A stretch of DNA of 64,000 nt from Pseudomonas sp. C2B4 (lineage in GTDB: Bacteria; Pseudomonadota; Gammaproteobacteria; Pseudomonadales; Pseudomonadaceae): positions 248,001 through 312,000 of the forward strand of contig NZ_JABFMU010000002.1 in NCBI RefSeq assembly GCF_013359695.1, given 5' to 3'. The notes under the pieces were generated by a model that saw nothing but the letters and a program-made list of their open reading frames with translations, did not search any database and was not told where the DNA came from. Positions within the stretch are counted from its first letter, which is position 1; every line of letters starts with the position of its first letter. This document shows, piece after piece, positions 3,311-13,600 of this stretch. The position numbers and the translations under genes were made by a program.

Positions 3311-4993
3311 TTACTCGGGCAGGGCGATAGGGCCTATGTCTTTGAACACATCACCCGGGCCCGGGTTCTCTTTATGTGTCGCGCCGCCGAAATGCTTCAT
3401 GATGCCCCACACCGCGTTGAGCGACGTTTGCACCGCGCCTTCAACCCAGGCCGGCGTCCACGAAACGTCATCCCCGGCAATGAAAATCCCGCGCTGTTCC
3501 GCTGGCATGTCGTCCTGCATGAAGTGCGCGTACATGCGCTGGTTGTAGCGGTAGTGGCCGGGCAGGGCGCCTTTGAACGCGCCGAGGAAGTGCGGGTCGG
3601 CTTCCCAGGATACGGTGATCGGATCGCCGATGATGCGTGCGGCGATATCGACTTTTGGGTAGATCTTTTTCAAGGCATCCAGCGCCAGTTTCACGCGTTT
3701 TTCCACCGGGTGCGGGAGCATTTTCAGCGCGTCGCTCATCCACGAATACGACAGGCAAATCACCCCTGGCTTGTCGTCGCCGTTATCGAACAGGTAGGTG
3801 CCACGGGTCAGGCGATCGGTGAGGGTCATGCTCATCAGGTCGCGGCCGGTTTCCGGGTCTTTGTCCTTCCAGAATGGGCGGTCGACCATCACGAAGGTTT
3901 TCGACGACTGCATGTAGCGGGTGCGGTCCAGGGCCATCCACATTTTTTGCGAGAACAGGGTTTCTTCGCATTCGATCTGAGTGGTCAGCAGCCAGCTCTG
4001 GCAGGTGGTCAGCACCGCGGCATATTCGCGGGTGTCGCCGTTGTTGTCGGTGACCGCAAAACGGCCGCCCGGCGCGTGAGCGATTTTCTTCACCCCGGAG
4101 CGTGGAGCGCCGCTGTGCAGCGACTTGAGGCTGGTACCTTGCGGCCAGTGCACGCAGCGTTCAGGTACATGGCGCCAGATGCCCTGAGGCACCTGTTCCA
4201 CACCACCGACCACCAGATGTTGGTGATCGTCGCAGTTGGTCATCACTACGCGGAAGATTTCCAGCATCGAGTTGGGGAAGTCCGAGTCCCAGCCACCGGT
4301 GCCGAAACCGACCTGGCCGAACACTTCGCGGTGATGGAACGACAGTTTGGCAAAGGCTTTGGAGGTGGCGACGAAATCGTAGAAGGTGCGGTCGTCCCAC
4401 AGCGGTACGAGGGTGTTCCACAGCTCCTTGAGGCGCGGAACGTCGCGGTCGCGGATCGCTTGCTGGATATCGGAGAACTGCGAGCCGGCTTCCAGGGCGT
4501 CGGCCCAGGCGTCAGCCACTTCCTGGAACAGTGCAGGAAGATCCGCCAGTTTCTGTGCGTAATGGGTTTTGCCTTCCAGATCGATCACGGTGCTGCCGGA
4601 GGCGGGCGTCAGCGGGTTCGGGAAGGGCTTGGTCTCAAGACCCAGCTTGTCGACGTAGTGATAGAACGCGGTGGACGACACCGGAAAACGCATGCCGCCC
4701 AACTCGGCGACAATGCCGTCGGTGCCATTGAACGCTTGGGAGCGCAGACGACCGCCCAGCTTCGAAGCCTCATACACGACGGGCTTCAGGCCAAGTTTCA
4801 TCAGCTCGTAAGCGGCCACCAACCCGGCGATACCGGCGCCGACAATCGCCACTTCGGCACCGTGATTGTGCTCGGGAATGCTGCCCAGGCCGGCCGGGTG
4901 TTCGATCCAATCGTCGAAGGCGAAAGGAAAGTCCGGACCGAAAATGGTGACTGGTTTTTTACCGTCTGCAGGATGGCGATTGTTCTTGTTCAT
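3311..4993 (-). CDS. davB: L-lysine 2-monooxygenase, FAD amine-oxidase family
   Basis: A 560-residue flavin amine oxidase-type protein. The Rossmann FAD site VAIVGAGIAGLVAAYEL is near residues 48-64 with the following acidic residue (VVYEAS), and a C-terminal FAD segment (GIFIAGDDVSWTPAWVEGA) is near 500. It converts L-lysine with O2 to 5-aminopentanamide, CO2 and water, the first step of the DavBA route. The ATG at 4993 has AAGG 7 nt upstream. A CTATACT box about 40 bp upstream of the start is a likely promoter. The Lrp/AsnC gene upstream, on the same strand, is a candidate regulator. Confidence 0.92.
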   Translation of the reverse strand: MNKNNRHPADGKKPVTIFGPDFPFAFDDWIEHPAGLGSIPEHNHGAEVAIVGAGIAGLVAAYELMKLGLKPVVYEASKLGGRLRSQAFNGTDGIVAELGGMRFPVSSTAFYHYVDKLGLETKPFPNPLTPASGSTVIDLEGKTHYAQKLADLPALFQEVADAWADALEAGSQFSDIQQAIRDRDVPRLKELWNTLVPLWDDRTFYDFVATSKAFAKLSFHHREVFGQVGFGTGGWDSDFPNSMLEIFRVVMTNCDDHQHLVVGGVEQVPQGIWRHVPERCVHWPQGTSLKSLHSGAPRSGVKKIAHAPGGRFAVTDNNGDTREYAAVLTTCQSWLLTTQIECEETLFSQKMWMALDRTRYMQSSKTFVMVDRPFWKDKDPETGRDLMSMTLTDRLTRGTYLFDNGDDKPGVICLSYSWMSDALKMLPHPVEKRVKLALDALKKIYPKVDIAARIIGDPITVSWEADPHFLGAFKGALPGHYRYNQRMYAHFMQDDMPAEQRGIFIAGDDVSWTPAWVEGAVQTSLNAVWGIMKHFGGATHKENPGPGDVFKDIGPIALPE

Positions 4994-8323: not shown

Positions 8324-8944
8324 ATGGAAACCAAGAAGATGCCGCCCGCTGTACGGGACCATGCCTTGCAGATTGCCCATCACGAGATGGGGCACTACGT
8401 CGTGGCCCGGGCACTGGGGTTTGAAACAGGGGGCGTGACGCTGACAGTGACCAGGGACCTGAGACACAAAGGGGGTGCGACCATCAGCCTGGTGCGACCC
8501 ATAACGTCGATGGAAGCCATGAAGGAATACCTTGAAGCCCGGATGATGGTCCTGTTTGCGGGCGCCATGGCGCAGACTTTACCTTCAGCGCGTGCACGCG
8601 AGAAACGTGTCGATAAAACGAAAGCGATCGCCATCCTCAACGGCGCATTTGGGGCGGAACGGGATGACGCAAAGATCAGGGAATTGCGGCAGCTGCTTCG
8701 CAACATCACCCATCCCGATACCGATCCGGCAGCGTGCGACCGCATCACCGTCGAGCTGAAGGCGATCAACGATCATCTGTGGTTGCGCACTCAGGAGATC
8801 GTCGAAGCATTGACAGGCACCATTACCGAACTCGGAGAGGCATTGGTAGAGCGCATGGTCCTGGTCGAACAGTGGGGCAGGCCGGCGGAAACCTACGAGG
8901 TTGTGTTGACGCGGGAAATGCTTGAACGGTTGGCCCCTCTGTAG
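8324..8944 (+). CDS. Stand-alone M41-like (FtsH protease domain) putative zinc peptidase
   Basis: A 206-residue protein of unknown function. Near residue 25 it carries HHEMGHYVVARALGF, an HExxH zinc motif in a context resembling the FtsH peptidase (M41) helix HEAGHAVV. VTLTV and ARMMVLFAGAMAQTL follow, comparable to the FtsH segment before its third ligand, and the Asp in VDKTKAIAIL is a candidate third ligand. There is no AAA+ ATPase domain or membrane segment, so this would be a soluble peptidase-like domain without the unfoldase. GGGAG lies 9 nt before the ATG. The TAG stop falls inside a REP element, so the C-terminus may be cut short. Family resemblance is by motif only; activity is an inference. 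Confidence 0.7.
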   Translation: METKKMPPAVRDHALQIAHHEMGHYVVARALGFETGGVTLTVTRDLRHKGGATISLVRPITSMEAMKEYLEARMMVLFAGAMAQTLPSARAREKRVDKTKAIAILNGAFGAERDDAKIRELRQLLRNITHPDTDPAACDRITVELKAINDHLWLRTQEIVEALTGTITELGEALVERMVLVEQWGRPAETYEVVLTREMLERLAPL

Positions 8945-9040
8945 GAGCGAGCTAGCTCGCGAAGGTCGTGAACGAAAACGCGTAAATCGAGATGCCCCGC
9001 GGCGTTCTCGGGTTTTTCGCGAGCAAGCTCGCTCCTACAG
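8941..9040. repeat. REPIN (inverted REP pair)
   Basis: Two REP copies of the GTAGGAGCGAGC..GCTCGCGAA type in inverted orientation (8941-8964 and 9016-9040), separated by about 50 bp. The left copy supplies the stop codon of the M41-like ORF, and the right copy ends 5 bp before the DUF3077 stop. The whole unit can fold into one long hairpin between the two convergent genes. Confidence 0.85.
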
Positions 9041-9045
9041 GTTCC

Positions 9046-9333
9046 TCAACTGATTGGCCTGCGCGTCAGCACCTTCACCACATCATCAATTACCGCTTTG
9101 CTCATCGTCGTCAGATAGTGCGCTGCCCAAGCATGGCGGTCAGTATCTTTGGCGAACGCGGCGTCCACGGTCAGGGATTTGGCGAGGAACAGCAGGTCGG
9201 AGGCTTGAGCCAAGGCGTCGGCAATGGGGACGTCGCGGCATACGTGGAAGAGTGGTTGGTTGGAGCAGTAGAGGAAGGGGGTGAAACCGATGGTTTTTAG
9301 TTCTGAGGGTTCGGGCGGATTTGTTTTCGTCAT
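9046..9333 (-). CDS. DUF3077-type small protein under a C4-like RNA
   Basis: A 95-residue protein resembling the DUF3077 family that is common and multicopy in Pseudomonas; no function is known. Residues 19-50 contain FTPFLYCSNQPLFHVCRDVP, and a central helix has ADALAQASDLLFLAKSL. I chose the ATG at 9333 because AGGAG lies 7 nt upstream; a longer frame from 9375 would run through the structured leader. The Shine-Dalgarno region is complementary to a loop of the C4-like RNA encoded just upstream on the same strand, so expression is probably held down by antisense pairing. The context (RNA control, neighbouring toxin-antitoxin genes) suggests a phage-derived or selfish-type module, but that is inference. 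Confidence 0.72.
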   Translation of the reverse strand: MTKTNPPEPSELKTIGFTPFLYCSNQPLFHVCRDVPIADALAQASDLLFLAKSLTVDAAFAKDTDRHAWAAHYLTTMSKAVIDDVVKVLTRRPIS

Positions 9334-9341
9334 GGTGCAGC

Positions 9342-9390
9342 TCCTAATTTGAGGTGCTGTCACATTCGTTTCCAAGCGAATGGGTGACAG
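9342..9390 (-). promoter_or_regulatory. Leader hairpin and SD target sites of the DUF3077 gene
   Basis: In the transcript this leader forms a long hairpin (CTGTCAC-C-CATTCG pairing with CGAATG-TGACAG, 9357-9390) with loop CTTGGAAA (9369-9376). The Shine-Dalgarno segment AAATTAGGAG (9350 to 9341) follows. The loop is complementary to TTTTCCAA, and the SD segment to TCCTAATTT, both in the C4-like RNA. These two sites have the a/b target layout of phage P1 C4 control. Confidence 0.6.
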
Positions 9391-9460
9391 CTGTGCGCAG
9401 GTTGGAAAACCGGGAAATTAGGAAACCGGCACGCCCGAAGACGTCCCGCGCACAGCCGCC
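9386..9460 (-). ncRNA. C4-like antisense RNA
   Basis: A 75-nt element on the minus strand, upstream of and in the same orientation as the DUF3077 gene. The closing stem is 13 bp including G.U pairs (GGCGGCTGTGCGC with GCGCACAGCTGTC). Inside are a five-pair hairpin capped by a TTCG tetraloop (ACGTC-TTCG-GGCGT), a CCGG/CCGG hairpin whose loop holds TCCTAATTT, and an unpaired TTTTCCAACC. TCCTAATTT is exactly complementary to the DUF3077 Shine-Dalgarno region, and TTTCCAA to the loop of the leader hairpin. Size, layout and order fit the phage P1/P7 C4 RNA family, which is cut from the same transcript it represses. Rfam membership was not tested here. Confidence 0.68.
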
Positions 9461-9494
9461 ATAACTCGATGGGCAAACCGTTGCGTCCAATTTC

Positions 9495-9531
9495 ATCGGG
9501 TTTCCAAGCCCGATCGCTGAATGGTCAGCGA
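9495..9531 (-). promoter_or_regulatory. Two hairpins upstream of the C4-like RNA
   Basis: A hairpin ATCGGG/CCCGAT (9495-9514) displays the same eight-base loop (CTTGGAAA in the transcript) as the target hairpin at 9369-9376. It abuts a second hairpin TCGCTGA/TCAGCGA (9514-9531). The repeated loop sequence offers a second possible pairing site for the TTTTCCAA segment of the C4-like RNA. Confidence 0.5.
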
Positions 9532-9540
9532 CGTCCGGAG

Positions 9541-9870
9541 ACTATCCCGTCGAAGAAAAGCGCAACAAGGCGGCAAATTGCCCAAAAGCAAGATTCGGAG
9601 TTTGCCTACAAGACCCTACGGCGTCATCCGATATTGCGGCACCTGAAGTAAGCAATGTTTAAACGGAAAACACGCAAAAAGCTCGTGATTGACGCGTCCT
9701 GACAACATTTCAAACGCCTCAATGACCTCTCATGAGCCATCAATCAAGTGGGGGCCCAGGTTCAACGGTCAGGTGCTGGAAACGGTCATTAACAATTTTG
9801 GGAAGTGCCAAGCGTGGTCGGGTGGCCGCTCTAGCTCATAAAGTTATTCCCTTGAGATCATATTCCTTGG
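9541..9870. other. Gene-free, comparatively AT-rich spacer
   Basis: About 330 bp between the C4-like RNA region and the toxin gene. Short frames here have no ribosome site and no recognisable product. Base composition is visibly less GC-rich than the flanking core genome, in keeping with acquired DNA. The promoters of the minus-strand C4/DUF3077 unit and of the plus-strand toxin-antitoxin operon should lie here, but I cannot place them with confidence. Confidence 0.5.
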
Positions 9871-9882
9871 GTGGCATATTGT

Positions 9883-10248
9883 ATGGGCTGGGATATTGAG
9901 TACACCGATCAGTTTGGAGTCTGGTGGGAGGGGCTGGATGTGCAAGAACAGGCTTCGGTTTCGGCCAGCGTCGATTTGCTGGAGCTCTTCGGGCCAGGGC
10001 TACGCTTTCCCCACAGCAGTGACATCAAAGGCTCTCGATATGGCAATCTCCGAGAGCTGAGGGTCCAGCATGCGGGGCGACCTTATCGTGTGCTGTATGC
10101 ATTTGATCCACGTCGATGCGCTCTACTTTTGATCGGAGGGGACAAAACCGGTCAGGGCCGTTGGTATGACGAGAATGTCCCGTTGGCCGACAAGTTGTAT
10201 GGCGAACATTTGGAAACACTGCGTAAAGAGGGCCGCAACGATGGCTAA
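9883..10248 (+). CDS. RelE/ParE (HigB-like) toxin
   Basis: A 121-residue toxin-like protein. Signature segments are the N-terminal YTDQFGVWWEGL, the central GSRYGNLRELRVQHAGRPYR and VLYAFDPRRCALLLIGGDKTG, matching the phage-derived Gp49-like/HigB branch of RelE-type mRNA interferases, which cleave mRNA on the ribosome. The ATG at 9883 is preceded by GGGTGG at 8 nt; a GTG at 9871 is the alternative. Its stop overlaps the antitoxin start by 8 bp, the toxin-first order typical of higBA systems. Confidence 0.85.
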   Translation: MGWDIEYTDQFGVWWEGLDVQEQASVSASVDLLELFGPGLRFPHSSDIKGSRYGNLRELRVQHAGRPYRVLYAFDPRRCALLLIGGDKTGQGRWYDENVPLADKLYGEHLETLRKEGRNDG

Positions 10249-10546
10249 GAAATTTTCTGAACTTCAAGCTCGCATGACGCCGGAATCTCGAGCTAACGCA
10301 GAGCGGCTATTCCAGCAGCACCTGAAAGAAATGCCCTTGCATGAGTTGCGCAAGGCGCAGGAACTGAGCCAGGAAACGCTGGCCAAGACACTACATGTCA
10401 ACCAGGCGGCAATCTCCAAGATGGAGCGGCGTACCGACATGTACATCAGCACGTTGCGCAATTACATCCGCGCCATGGGCGGTGAACTGGAAATCATCGC
10501 AACCTTTCCCGAGGGGCAGGTAAAGATCGAGAACTTTTCCAACTGA
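10241..10546 (+). CDS. XRE-family HigA-like antitoxin
   Basis: A 101-residue DNA-binding antitoxin. A helix-turn-helix at about residues 38-80 (QELSQETLAKTLHVNQAAIS, then KMERR) is preceded by an N-terminal helical segment. It should neutralise the preceding toxin and repress the shared promoter. The start codon lies inside the end of the toxin gene, so the two are translationally coupled. A terminator follows 14 bp after the stop, closing a two-gene operon. Confidence 0.87.
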   Translation: MAKKFSELQARMTPESRANAERLFQQHLKEMPLHELRKAQELSQETLAKTLHVNQAAISKMERRTDMYISTLRNYIRAMGGELEIIATFPEGQVKIENFSN

Positions 10547-10680: not shown

Positions 10681-13600
10681 TTATAGCGACGGTTTCGCGG
10701 CTGTGCTATCCGAAAAATCCAATACGGCTGTACGAAGAAACGTCGCGGCGAATTCATCGGGGGGCAGGGGCAGGCTGACGATGTAGCCCTGAATCTGCTC
10801 GCAACCTTCAAAGGCCAGAAATTGCTGCTGGGCCTGGGTTTCGACGCCTTCGGCAATCACGGTGAATTGCATGCTGCGGCCAAGCGCGATGATGGCGCGC
10901 ACGATGGCGGCGTCGTGGGGGTCATCCGGCAAGCCGCGAACGAACGACTGGTCGATCTTGAGGATGTCCAGTGGCAGACGCTTGAGGTAGCTCAAGGATG
11001 AATAGCCCGTACCGAAATCGTCGATCGCCAGTTGCACGCCCAGGTGCTTGAGTTGATGCAGCACGGCCAGCGCTTCTTCCGCTTGGCTCATGATGAAGTT
11101 TTCGGTGATTTCCAGTTGCAGGAGTCCAGGATTGAGGCGGTAGTCTTTGAGCAGTTGTTCGATGCGTCCGAGCAGGTTCGGTTGGCGCAGTTGAGCACCT
11201 GCGAGGTTGACCGATAGCGGGCCGAGGTCCACGTAGGTTTTACTCCACTCGTGCAATTGCCGGCAGGCGGTCTCCAATACCCAGTCGCCAATTTGCAGGA
11301 TCATGCCGTTTTCTTCGGCCAGGGAAATGAAGTGCTCCGGCGGTACATCGCCAAAGGTCGGATGCCGCCAGCGGATCAGCGCTTCGGCACCCACCAGGCG
11401 ATAGTCGTCGAGGCTGATCTTGGGTTGGTAGTACAGGTGCAGTTCGTTGCGCTCGATGGCGCGTCGTAGTTCATGCTCCAGCGCTATCCGTTCACTGGCC
11501 TGCGCGGTGAGGTCGCAGGTATAGCTTTCGACCCGGTTACGCCCCTTGGCTTTGGAGCGGTACATCGCCGCGTCGGCGTTCTTGATCAGCGTGGCCACAT
11601 CGCAGCCGTCCTGTGGATAAAGGCTGGTGCCTATGCTGGAACTGATGAAAAACTCATGCTCACCGGCCTGGAACGGCGCGGTGAAGCAGTTAAGCAGCTT
11701 GGTGGCAATGTTGTCGGCATCGCTGGGTTGCTGCAGGCCGGGCAGCAGGATGATGAATTCATCGCCGCCCAAACGCGCCACCGTATCGATATCGCGCAGC
11801 TGTTCCTTGAGGCGTACGGCAATGCCCTTGAGCAGCAGGTCACCGACCGGATGACCCAGGCTGTCGTTGATGTGTTTGAAGCGGTCCAGATCCAGGAACA
11901 GCACCGCGCCCTGGCCACCGTTTTCCTTTTGGGTATTGAGTGCGCTTTGTAGGCGGCTTTCGAACAGTGTGCGGTTGGGCAGCCCGGTCAGTGGGTCGTG
12001 GTGGGCCTGATAGTCGAGTTTGGCCTGGGCGTGCTTGAGGCTGGAAATGTCGGCGAACACGGCGACAAAGTGAGTGATGAACTTGTCCCGGTTGCGCACT
12101 GCGCTGATGGTCAGCCAGCTCGGATAGAGCTCGCCATTCTTGCGGCGATTGGAAATCTCGCCTTGCCAGTGCCCCTCAGCGGTCAGCTGATGCCACATGG
12201 CGGCGTAGAACGCGCTGTCATGCAGGCCCGAGGCAAGCAGGCGCGGAGTATGGCCCAGCGCCTCGCTTTCGCTGTACCCGGTGATTTCGGTGAACGCACG
12301 GTTGACCGCGCTGATGTGCTGCTGGGTATCGGTGATCAATACGCCTTCGGCGGTGCTCTCGAACACCGTGGCGGCCTGTTGCAGTTTTTCCTGCATCAAA
12401 TGGCGCTCGGTGATGTCCCGGGCGATGGTCAGCATGCAGTCCTCATCGCCAATGGGCAGCGGGCGACTGGACACCTCACAGAGCCGGATCTGCCCGTCGC
12501 TGCGGCGGATATGGCAGCTGAAGTCACGCACGAAACCATCACGATGAAGCAGGTCGAGCATCTGTTTGCGCTCGTTGAGGTTGACCCAGATCCCCAGATC
12601 CAGGGCCGAGCGATCCACCGACATCGCGCTGTTGAACCCGGTGATGCGGCTGAAACCCTCGTTCACCTCCAACAGCAAGCCATCGCTCTGTCGCGATAGC
12701 AGCAAGCCGTCCGGGGAGGCGTGGAAGGCCTTGGCGAATTTCTCTTCGGAGGTTTGCAACTGCTGCTGGGTTTCCTTGAGTTGGGTGATATCACGCACCA
12801 CCACCACCAGGGCTGGGGTTGTATCGAGATCGAACGGTTCGGCCGAGATCAGGCCGGTGAACACCTGGCCATTGCTGCGGCGAAAGGGCATCTCCAGGTT
12901 TCGGATGCTGCCAGCCTGCAAGCGTTGTAACAGGCCCGGCCCCACGCCCGGAATGCCCCAGATGTTGAGGTCGGTGGCGGTCTGGCCAATGACGTCTTCG
13001 GCCCTGAGGCCGATTTGTTCTTCGAACGCTTCGTTGACCTCCAGCAAACAGCCGTCGGAGAGCCGTGCGATGACCAGAATGTCCGGGCATTGCTGGAACA
13101 CTGAAGCGAACTTCTGCTCCGACTGACGCAGTGCTTCTTCGGTGCGCTTGGCCTCGCTGATGTCGATCATCAGCCCGCGCATCACCGGCTCGTGGCCGTG
13201 TTCGATCAGGCTGACGATATCGCGAACCCACAAGCAACGCCCGTCTGCGGTGATGACCCGATAATCGAGGCTGTGATCGCGTCCGGCCAGCACTTCGTGA
13301 TCGCAAAAATTCTGTGCGCGGGTCAGATCGGCGGGGTGAATGATGTTTCGCCAGAATCCCGGTATCAGCCAGTGGGACAGAGGGTAGCCAAGCAGATCCT
13401 CGGCGTGGGGCGATACGTAGCTGTAGGTGAAGTCGCTCATCCGCGCTTCCCAGGCGATGGCCGACAGACTCTCCACCAGTCCGCGGTAGTGATACTCACT
13501 GCTGCGCAGTTCTTGCTCCAGATCGACCCGTCGGGCAATTTCCGAGCTGAGTCGGCGGTTGACCCGGATCACCGCCGCCAGAACGGTGATCAGCAACAGC

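Follow-up and report, generated by a model that had tools for sequence, protein, structure and literature searches.

A chromosomal C4-type antisense RNA module upstream of a DUF3077 gene and its multiplied relatives in Pseudomonas

We analyzed a stretch of 64,000 nucleotides of Pseudomonas DNA (referred to below as the window) and found a self-contained chromosomal module that, with a probability that we put at roughly 0.8 from the sequence comparisons, is a C4-type antisense switch, namely a domesticated, self-repressing cassette by which a small protein of phage origin is kept silent. One transcript would carry an a1b1 element, the C4 RNA, the a2b2 target and the DUF3077 gene. RNase P would presumably release C4 from this transcript, as happens in phage P1, and the two loops of C4 would pair jointly with the loop of the a2 hairpin and with b2, a site that overlaps the Shine-Dalgarno (SD) sequence, such that pairing would block DUF3077 translation. 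The upstream a1b1, a weaker copy, can bind the same C4 loops and is therefore a probable decoy, setting a threshold by analogy with the isrK part in Gifsy-1. The default state would be off, with the DUF3077 protein being made when free C4 falls. The cassette would be phage-derived, domesticated as a family and multiplied in Pseudomonas with DUF3077, DUF6124 and other small-protein cargo. A chromosomal C4 switch acting on the DUF3077 gene had been proposed in an initial annotation of this DNA, and the check suggested there, a search with the Rfam C4 covariance model (RF01695), returned a match of 85.4 bits against a gathering score of 45, which, together with the covariation described below, bears the proposal out. 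That annotation saw one copy of what is a C4 family found throughout the genus, often with tens of copies per genome. What appears to be new here is a chromosomal, multiplied and apparently insulated C4 system with new cargo.

The C4 module at the DUF3077 locus

The features of the locus are given in Table 1. On the minus strand, between 9331 and 9545, they follow one another in the order c4-a1b1, b1, C4, a2 hairpin, b2/SD and DUF3077 start codon (9331-9333). The c4-a1b1 element and C4 adjoin on the same strand and both score above their Rfam cut-offs, C4 far above and c4-a1b1 modestly so (52.6 bits against 46.7 for RF03163). C4 consists of a 77-nt core flanked by 5-nt tails and is closed by a stem of 17 bp. 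The size of 75 nt and the 13-bp stem given earlier need to be corrected, while the TTCG-capped hairpin and the two exposed sequences described with them stand. RNAfold yields the canonical three-stem fold with both loops open. Following the naming used for P1, b' is the hairpin loop that pairs with the SD region and a' is the unpaired loop; in a', the seven bases TTTCCAA are open and the first T forms the G-U pair that closes the hairpin stem. The fold is also seen in the variation among copies. In a 17-row alignment of paralogues, 97.7% of the cells were paired, with 23 double changes as compared to 6.3 after shuffling, and in a model-fitted alignment the corresponding values were 97.3%, 195 and 51.8. 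The RNA of this locus presents all of the C4 features that can be tested by computation.

Table 1 Features of the C4 module and its presumed target gene in the window.
Feature	Positions	Strand	Remarks
DUF3077 gene	9046-9333	-	95 aa; presumed switch target; Pfam PF11275, 5.6e-32
b2 target, AAATTAGGAG	9341-9350	-	SD region of the DUF3077 gene
a2 target hairpin	9364-9381	-	loop TTGGAAA at 9369-9375; covaries among paralogues
C4 antisense RNA	9380-9466	-	RF01695, 85.4 bits, E 2.1e-15; fold covariation over paralogues
a' of C4, TTTTCCAA	9402-9409	-	RNAfold unpaired probability at least 0.93 for 9402-9408, 0.1 for 9409
b' of C4, TCCTAATTT	9415-9423	-	in a 12-nt hairpin loop; unpaired probability at least 0.96
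UUCG-capped hairpin of C4	9431-9444	-	
b1 site, GAAATTGG	9487-9494	-	weaker upstream copy of b2; 8 contiguous pairs, one of them G-U
c4-a1b1 element	9493-9545	-	RF03163, 52.6 bits; includes the a1 hairpin
a1 hairpin	9497-9512	-	loop TTGGAAA at 9501-9507; within c4-a1b1
First a1b1 hairpin	9514-9531	-	

Two sets of sites are complementary to the C4 loops, a2 and b2 at the ribosome-binding site and, upstream, a1 and b1. Between b' and b2, nine Watson-Crick pairs are predicted, as had been claimed for the first exposed sequence, to which a G-U pair can be added; the seven pairs claimed for the second are likewise found between 9402-9408 of C4 and the a2 loop. On the minus strand, the antiparallel order of a'/b' and a2/b2 is correct for both pairings to form at once, again in line with what had been proposed. 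The predicted duplex energies are -7.3 kcal/mol for b'-b2, -6.2 for a'-a2 and -4.2 for b'-b1. The 49-nt target was also shuffled 200,000 times at the mononucleotide level, and no shuffle contained both sites. The second hairpin with a TTGGAAA loop that had been reported does exist, with narrower limits than the 9495-9514 assigned to it, and the first a1b1 hairpin and the b1 site had been missed.

With a median dN/dS of 0.128 (299 pairs among 25 intact syntenic sequences, the window's own included, out of 31 tried), the DUF3077 cargo is, on the sequences compared, under purifying selection. In the structural model of the protein (pLDDT 80), a helical hairpin accompanies two short strands, and that of DUF6124 (pLDDT 73) has long helices. 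A fold search with the DUF3077 model returned no match at E<=0.001 in the PDB or BFVD. VIA-align gave Z values up to 7.2, a level that common helical arrangements can reach, and no function is therefore read from such a match. Profile comparison revealed no similarity between DUF3077 and DUF6124, and the window's DUF3077 protein matches the DUF6124 Pfam model weakly (E 0.041). This protein had no match in phage records and one in plasmids, while PHROG 36471 matches DUF3077; for the DUF6124 protein, one phage record and no plasmid was matched.

The surroundings of the module consist of a PQQ-dehydrogenase-like gene, the ORF at 8324-8944, the module, tRNA-Met and a large gene of GGDEF type; the names of this gene and of the PQQ-dehydrogenase-like one, also large, were assigned by eye. 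The ORF at 8324-8944, which is the gene after DUF3077, lies on the opposite strand; the C4 unit contains a single DUF3077 gene and no antirepressor gene downstream. A sigma-70 scan of the locus gave no promoter on the minus strand. DUF3077 relatives were taken from named genomes, with 80 of 165 being kept, all of them from Pseudomonas. Within 3-kb flanks, their neighbourhoods are partly common to that of the window (the tRNA piece in 34 of the 80, the 8324-8944 ORF in 30 and the 10681-12500 piece in 31). C4 was found upstream of 79 of these 80 loci; in the one exception (L170), just a 64-nt piece resembling the module region was seen. Between the C4 module and tRNA-Met lies a toxin-antitoxin-like pair of Gp49/DUF891 and HTH ORFs (9883-10248 and 10241-10546, plus strand), and as similar DNA is present in 14 of the 80 loci, this site is variable. 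Downstream of DUF3077, at 8941-9038, there is an inverted repeat, GTAGGAGCGAGC...GCTCGCTCCTAC, that by eye reads as REP-like.

Copies, spread and cargo of the C4 family

The same genome contains 16 C4 loci above the cut-off, and one of 14 control genomes gave a match, below it. For c4-a1b1, 19 matches were obtained at E<=1, nine of them above the cut-off. As nine of the 14 controls also match this model below the cut-off, weak c4-a1b1 matches mean little alone. The three DUF3077 and 14 DUF6124 matches in the genome correspond to 16 places, since one of them (C68) matches both Pfam models. C4 precedes 13 of these 16 places, and the other three C4 loci (L003, L015 and L016) precede small ORFs of a different kind; those of L003 and L015 had no Pfam match, and that of L016 resembles the ORF of L015 by eye. 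C4 is not obligatory, given the three places without a C4 match. Two of these (C33 and C55:80704) have intact ORFs and keep an a1b1 match, the sole remaining one, shortly before the SD. In the third, C68, a C4-less DUF6124/DUF3077-like ORF (L020:2950-3291, minus strand) is divergent from an ORF that by eye is XRE-type repressor-like (3412-4059, plus strand). A further diverged C4 (24.8 bits with our own model R1) is found in C51 before an ORF that by eye looks BRO-N-like. Cargo of BRO-N type was noted in modules L082 and L053 of another genome, G049 (from Pfam), and in L019 of the present one (by eye); in L082, the MxKxTPNPPE leader of DUF6124 proteins is fused to a BRO-N domain.

Some elements around C4 are present in part of the copies. 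A conserved block, TACGCCAGAATCCGCCGGCTTGTGCGC, lies some 110-160 nt upstream of C4 and matches at 18 or more of its 27 positions in 27 of the 66 modules of this genome and G049, with 26 of these matching at 24 or more. It is a possible promoter and 5' leader. The block is absent from the window locus, where the best match covers 15 of 27 positions. By a crude rule, a terminator between a1b1 and C4 was found in six of 16 modules of this genome, eight of 50 in G049 and five of 79 DUF3077 loci. With so few such loci, an isrK-like short RNA is not general.

Across the genus, C4 was detected in 53 of 59 sampled genomes, with a median of 15 copies and with 25 genomes having at least 20 (61 candidates were scored per genome, and high counts should be considered lower bounds). 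G049, a single contig of 6.7 Mb, had 55 C4 matches at E<=0.01, of which 52 were above the cut-off. The cargo is mostly a DUF3077 or DUF6124 gene, and over the 59 genomes, C4 and DUF6124 counts are correlated (Spearman 0.87). In wider samples, C4 was found in 11 of 76 genomes of the order and 16 of 232 of the class (the present genome being counted in both). Outside the genus, the highest count observed is six, 18 or 49 candidates having been scored in each genome. There, 26 loci were inspected and 10 ORFs scanned, which gave AntA, Rha and BRO-N antirepressors once each and a SymE toxin, while six of the 10 had no family match above the cut-off. The SymE-family ORF lies downstream of C4 in L196 of G125. 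A 1.5-Mb genome outside the genus has four C4 matches within 1.4 kb (G289:C9:1700-3092), and the two that were inspected (L194 and L199) precede small ORFs with matching sites.

In a variant of the module, there is a leader ORF. We inspected 17 modules, nearly all because the DUF3077 start was far from C4 or because no long ORF was nearby. A leader ORF of 28-38 codons follows C4 in 12 named loci, as well as in L004, L050, L052 and L093; these last four had been considered as broken ORFs, an explanation that was rejected as a short leader ORF precedes the DUF3077 gene. The leader starts 45-52 nt after C4 and its stop overlaps the DUF3077 start, among the 12 by 4 nt (ATGA) in eight loci and by about 8 nt in four. 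The variant is thus present in at least 12 of the 79 DUF3077 loci with C4. Neither L175, which was among the 17, nor the window locus has a leader ORF. Many cargo and leader ORFs, like P1 icd, encode Asn-Pro (AATCC) soon after the start codon, and this early motif may be an RNA-level element.

Covariation of loops and targets, and insulation of the copies

The covariation analysis considered 146 modules, namely 16 from this genome, 50 of the 55 from G049 and 80 from DUF3077 loci (one being a second C4 in L114). Seventeen rows were dropped beforehand (14 opposite-strand duplicates, one weak match and two overlaps). With an ad hoc pairing score, cognate exceeded non-cognate pairing for all four loop-target pairs in this genome and G049, a result not equalled in 10,000 permutations. 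The values for the unpaired loop in the DUF3077 set were reached by 21 and 23 of 10,000 permutations, and as this loop has just six distinct forms there, the test is weak in that set. When both loops were scored jointly, with narrower target windows, the cognate target was strictly best in 15 of 16 loci of this genome and 40 of 50 of G049 (0 of 20,000 permutations). The exception in this genome, L009, has lost the a2 hairpin, and for the 10 remaining G049 modules a non-cognate target scores equally or higher. For viral modules (described below), the joint cognate mean was 33.9 as compared to 23.1 for non-cognate pairs, with the cognate target strictly best in 23 of 45 (0 of 20,000 permutations).

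The same was seen at one and the same place in different genomes, as the initial annotation had asked to be compared. The window and 33 loci judged syntenic present 15 distinct SD-pairing loops, many with a matching b2; examples of compensating variants are CCTAATTT/AAATTAGG, CCTAAGCT/AGCTTAGG and CCTTGGCT/AGCCAAGG. The b2 sites of the syntenic orthologues thus carry variants that are compensatory relative to the loop. The cognate target was strictly best for nine of the 15 distinct loops (0 of 20,000 permutations). The unpaired loop alone gives weak evidence in this set, its score being reached by three of 20,000 permutations. It should be noted that in 10 of the 33 loci (L108, L110, L113, L114, L116, L117, L122, L126, L138 and L150) the contiguous b-pairing is as short as 5-8 nt. 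Covariation of loop and target was therefore found both at syntenic loci and over paralogues, and the RNA mechanism of the C4 switch is strongly supported by these predicted pairings.

Insulation was analyzed in one genome, using 26 of the 50 G049 modules (those with an ORF of at least 80 aa and an NPP-type leader). Among these, 39 pairs of paralogues have at least 80% protein identity (median 0.90), and in none of the 39 is the SD-pairing loop common to both. The median identity of this loop is 0.50, against 0.44 when shuffled, and that of the unpaired loop 0.75. For example, the proteins of L060 and L078 have 98% identity and their closing stems 97%, but the SD-pairing loops only 50%. As such similar paralogues never share the SD-pairing loop, the switches look insulated from each other, most copies having diverged to a loop-target pair of their own. 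Gene conversion of the ORFs could contribute to the similarity of the paralogues, but it would need to leave out the loops.

Known systems, rival explanations and the phage link

Both C4 and c4-a1b1 are listed in Weinberg 2010 (PMC2864571). Among the open-licence papers searched, we saw none that links C4 to DUF3077 or DUF6124 genes. The closest likeness is to c4-icd-ant of phages P1 and P7, with which the locus shares the RNA family (P1 C4 scores 68.8 bits), the order a1b1-C4-a2b2-SD and the spacing, the DUF3077 gene starting 46 nt after C4 and P1 icd 47 nt after the C4 match. Unlike P1/P7, the unit contains one DUF3077 gene with no icd-like or ant gene, and is chromosomal and present in many copies. 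With the P1-type antirepressor gene absent, the locus would work like P1 c4 and not as a P1-type immunity operon. In Salmonella Gifsy-1, the isrK-orf45-anrP region is described as comprising a short upstream RNA, a processed RNA of about 80 nt and a leader ORF that overlaps the next start with AUGA (PMC4825925). The leader variant resembles orf45-anrP in this overlap (AUGA-type in eight of its 12 loci, longer in four), whereas at the window locus there is no leader ORF and no terminator was found between a1b1 and C4; the isrK model (RF01394) scores 25.7 bits there against a gathering score of 50, which places the locus outside that family. In the dRNA-seq data of Burkholderia cenocepacia, one unit comprises isrK, of 81 nt and with a terminator, and C4, of 90 nt; it differs in having one copy in the dRNA-seq table (PMC4603805). 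Phage P4 CI RNA is likewise processed and antisense, with one target upstream and another downstream (seqA/seqC), but acts by transcription termination; it is likened here by its description alone (PMC4825925). Multiple copies have been reported in Acinetobacter baumannii AB5075, whose Group 1 comprises 21 similar C4-like sRNAs in one genome, 15 of them full-length, that seem to arise from longer transcripts by processing at a GGW site and have a variable target loop (PMC5320573); cognate cis targets or cargo genes are not known to be identified there. In Pseudomonas, by contrast, almost all of the C4 RNAs examined come with a target and a gene of their own, with copies up to 55.

Could the small protein be toxic and C4 its RNA antitoxin, as in a type I toxin-antitoxin unit? 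We consider this possible but rather unlikely. P1 icd, which occupies the same position, inhibits cell division, one C4 elsewhere precedes the SymE toxin ORF (Pfam 1e-12), and the default-off logic would fit such a unit. Nonetheless, two DUF6124 ORFs in the same genome persist without C4, and the fold searches with DUF3077 were uninformative. In classical type I pairs, moreover, the antisense RNA is encoded opposite to, or divergently from, the toxin mRNA, while C4 is encoded upstream of its target, on the same strand.

Less probable still is a role mainly in trans, in which the chromosomal C4 RNAs would serve as an arsenal against infecting phages with C4-controlled genes. C4 of P1/P7 does act in immunity, and such superinfection immunity is one of two possible roles named by the Acinetobacter authors (PMC5320573). 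The idea is not supported by our data, as the loops of this genome and G049 fit viral targets no better than non-cognate chromosomal ones (a joint score of at least 34 in 0.47% and 0.93%, respectively) and one of 45 viral loop pairs is common to the chromosomal set, in a sample in which the phages were not paired with their own hosts. Most C4 RNAs, in addition, have their own matched target in cis. A decaying prophage remnant with no present function is disfavoured and seems very improbable. Such a remnant would explain DUF6124 modules in viral contigs and beside a tail cluster with prtR, as well as the antirepressors that some C4 RNAs elsewhere precede, yet DUF3077 is under purifying selection and loop-target covariation is maintained at the syntenic locus. 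Furthermore, of the three neighbouring ORFs scanned, none was a phage structural or replication gene, although for one the family is of toxin type and described in Pfam as phage-derived Gp49-like. The pairing could also be due to chance, or the C4 fold could be maintained for some other reason, but both are refuted in silico. A pyrimidine loop will indeed pair to some extent with SD-like sequences, which are rich in purines. Yet in this genome and G049 none of the 20,000 permutations reached the cognate scores, no shuffle contained both sites, and the fold itself covaries.

Returning to the self-repressing cassette, a wider reading can be offered tentatively, at somewhat under even odds. Pseudomonas would harbour sets of antisense-RNA switches, insulated from one another, that are perhaps the largest of their kind, often with tens of C4 cassettes per genome each having its own loop pair, duplication being followed by rapid, selected change of loop and target together, and the silenced cargo being a family of small proteins in phage conflict. 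If true, multi-copy C4 RNAs elsewhere, such as those of Acinetobacter, would be cis modules and not free trans regulators. C4, known as a phage immunity RNA, is here a chromosomal cassette that is widespread in one genus and has interchangeable small-protein cargo. Its copy numbers make specificity an evolutionary problem, and with up to tens of RNA-mRNA pairs in a genome, the paralogues are a naturally occurring set in which crosstalk and specificity change can be measured. The family also offers a way into DUF3077 and DUF6124, two uncharacterised Pfam families that a single one of the open-licence papers searched names.

With regard to phages, a DUF6124 query in IMG/VR yielded 57 loci on predicted viral contigs, which may include host DNA. 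C4 lies upstream on the same strand in 55 of these, and the other two begin at or near the contig end. The ORFs were inspected in 10 of the 57 loci. Ten large neighbouring ORFs, hand-picked and without a control set, gave six strong PADLOC matches (Septu PtuA, PtuB, PifA, Ppl, ApeA/PDC-S58 and PDC-S06), one weak match and three with none. This weakly supports a role of the cargo in phage-host conflict as the most likely one, the basis being these neighbours picked without a control. The modules concerned are L205, L208, L210, L241 and L249, which adjoin Septu, PifA, Ppl, ApeA-like and PDC-S06 genes. L253 has two tandem modules, flanked by tail-fibre-assembly and sheath genes. The C4-DUF6124 module of EU982300 adjoins a tail cluster and diverges from prtR, and in this divergence it resembles C68, where the DUF6124-type gene is divergent from the XRE-type-like repressor. 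On some of the IMG/VR contigs, DUF6124 is matched twice, on opposite strands and at a distance of about 18 kb.
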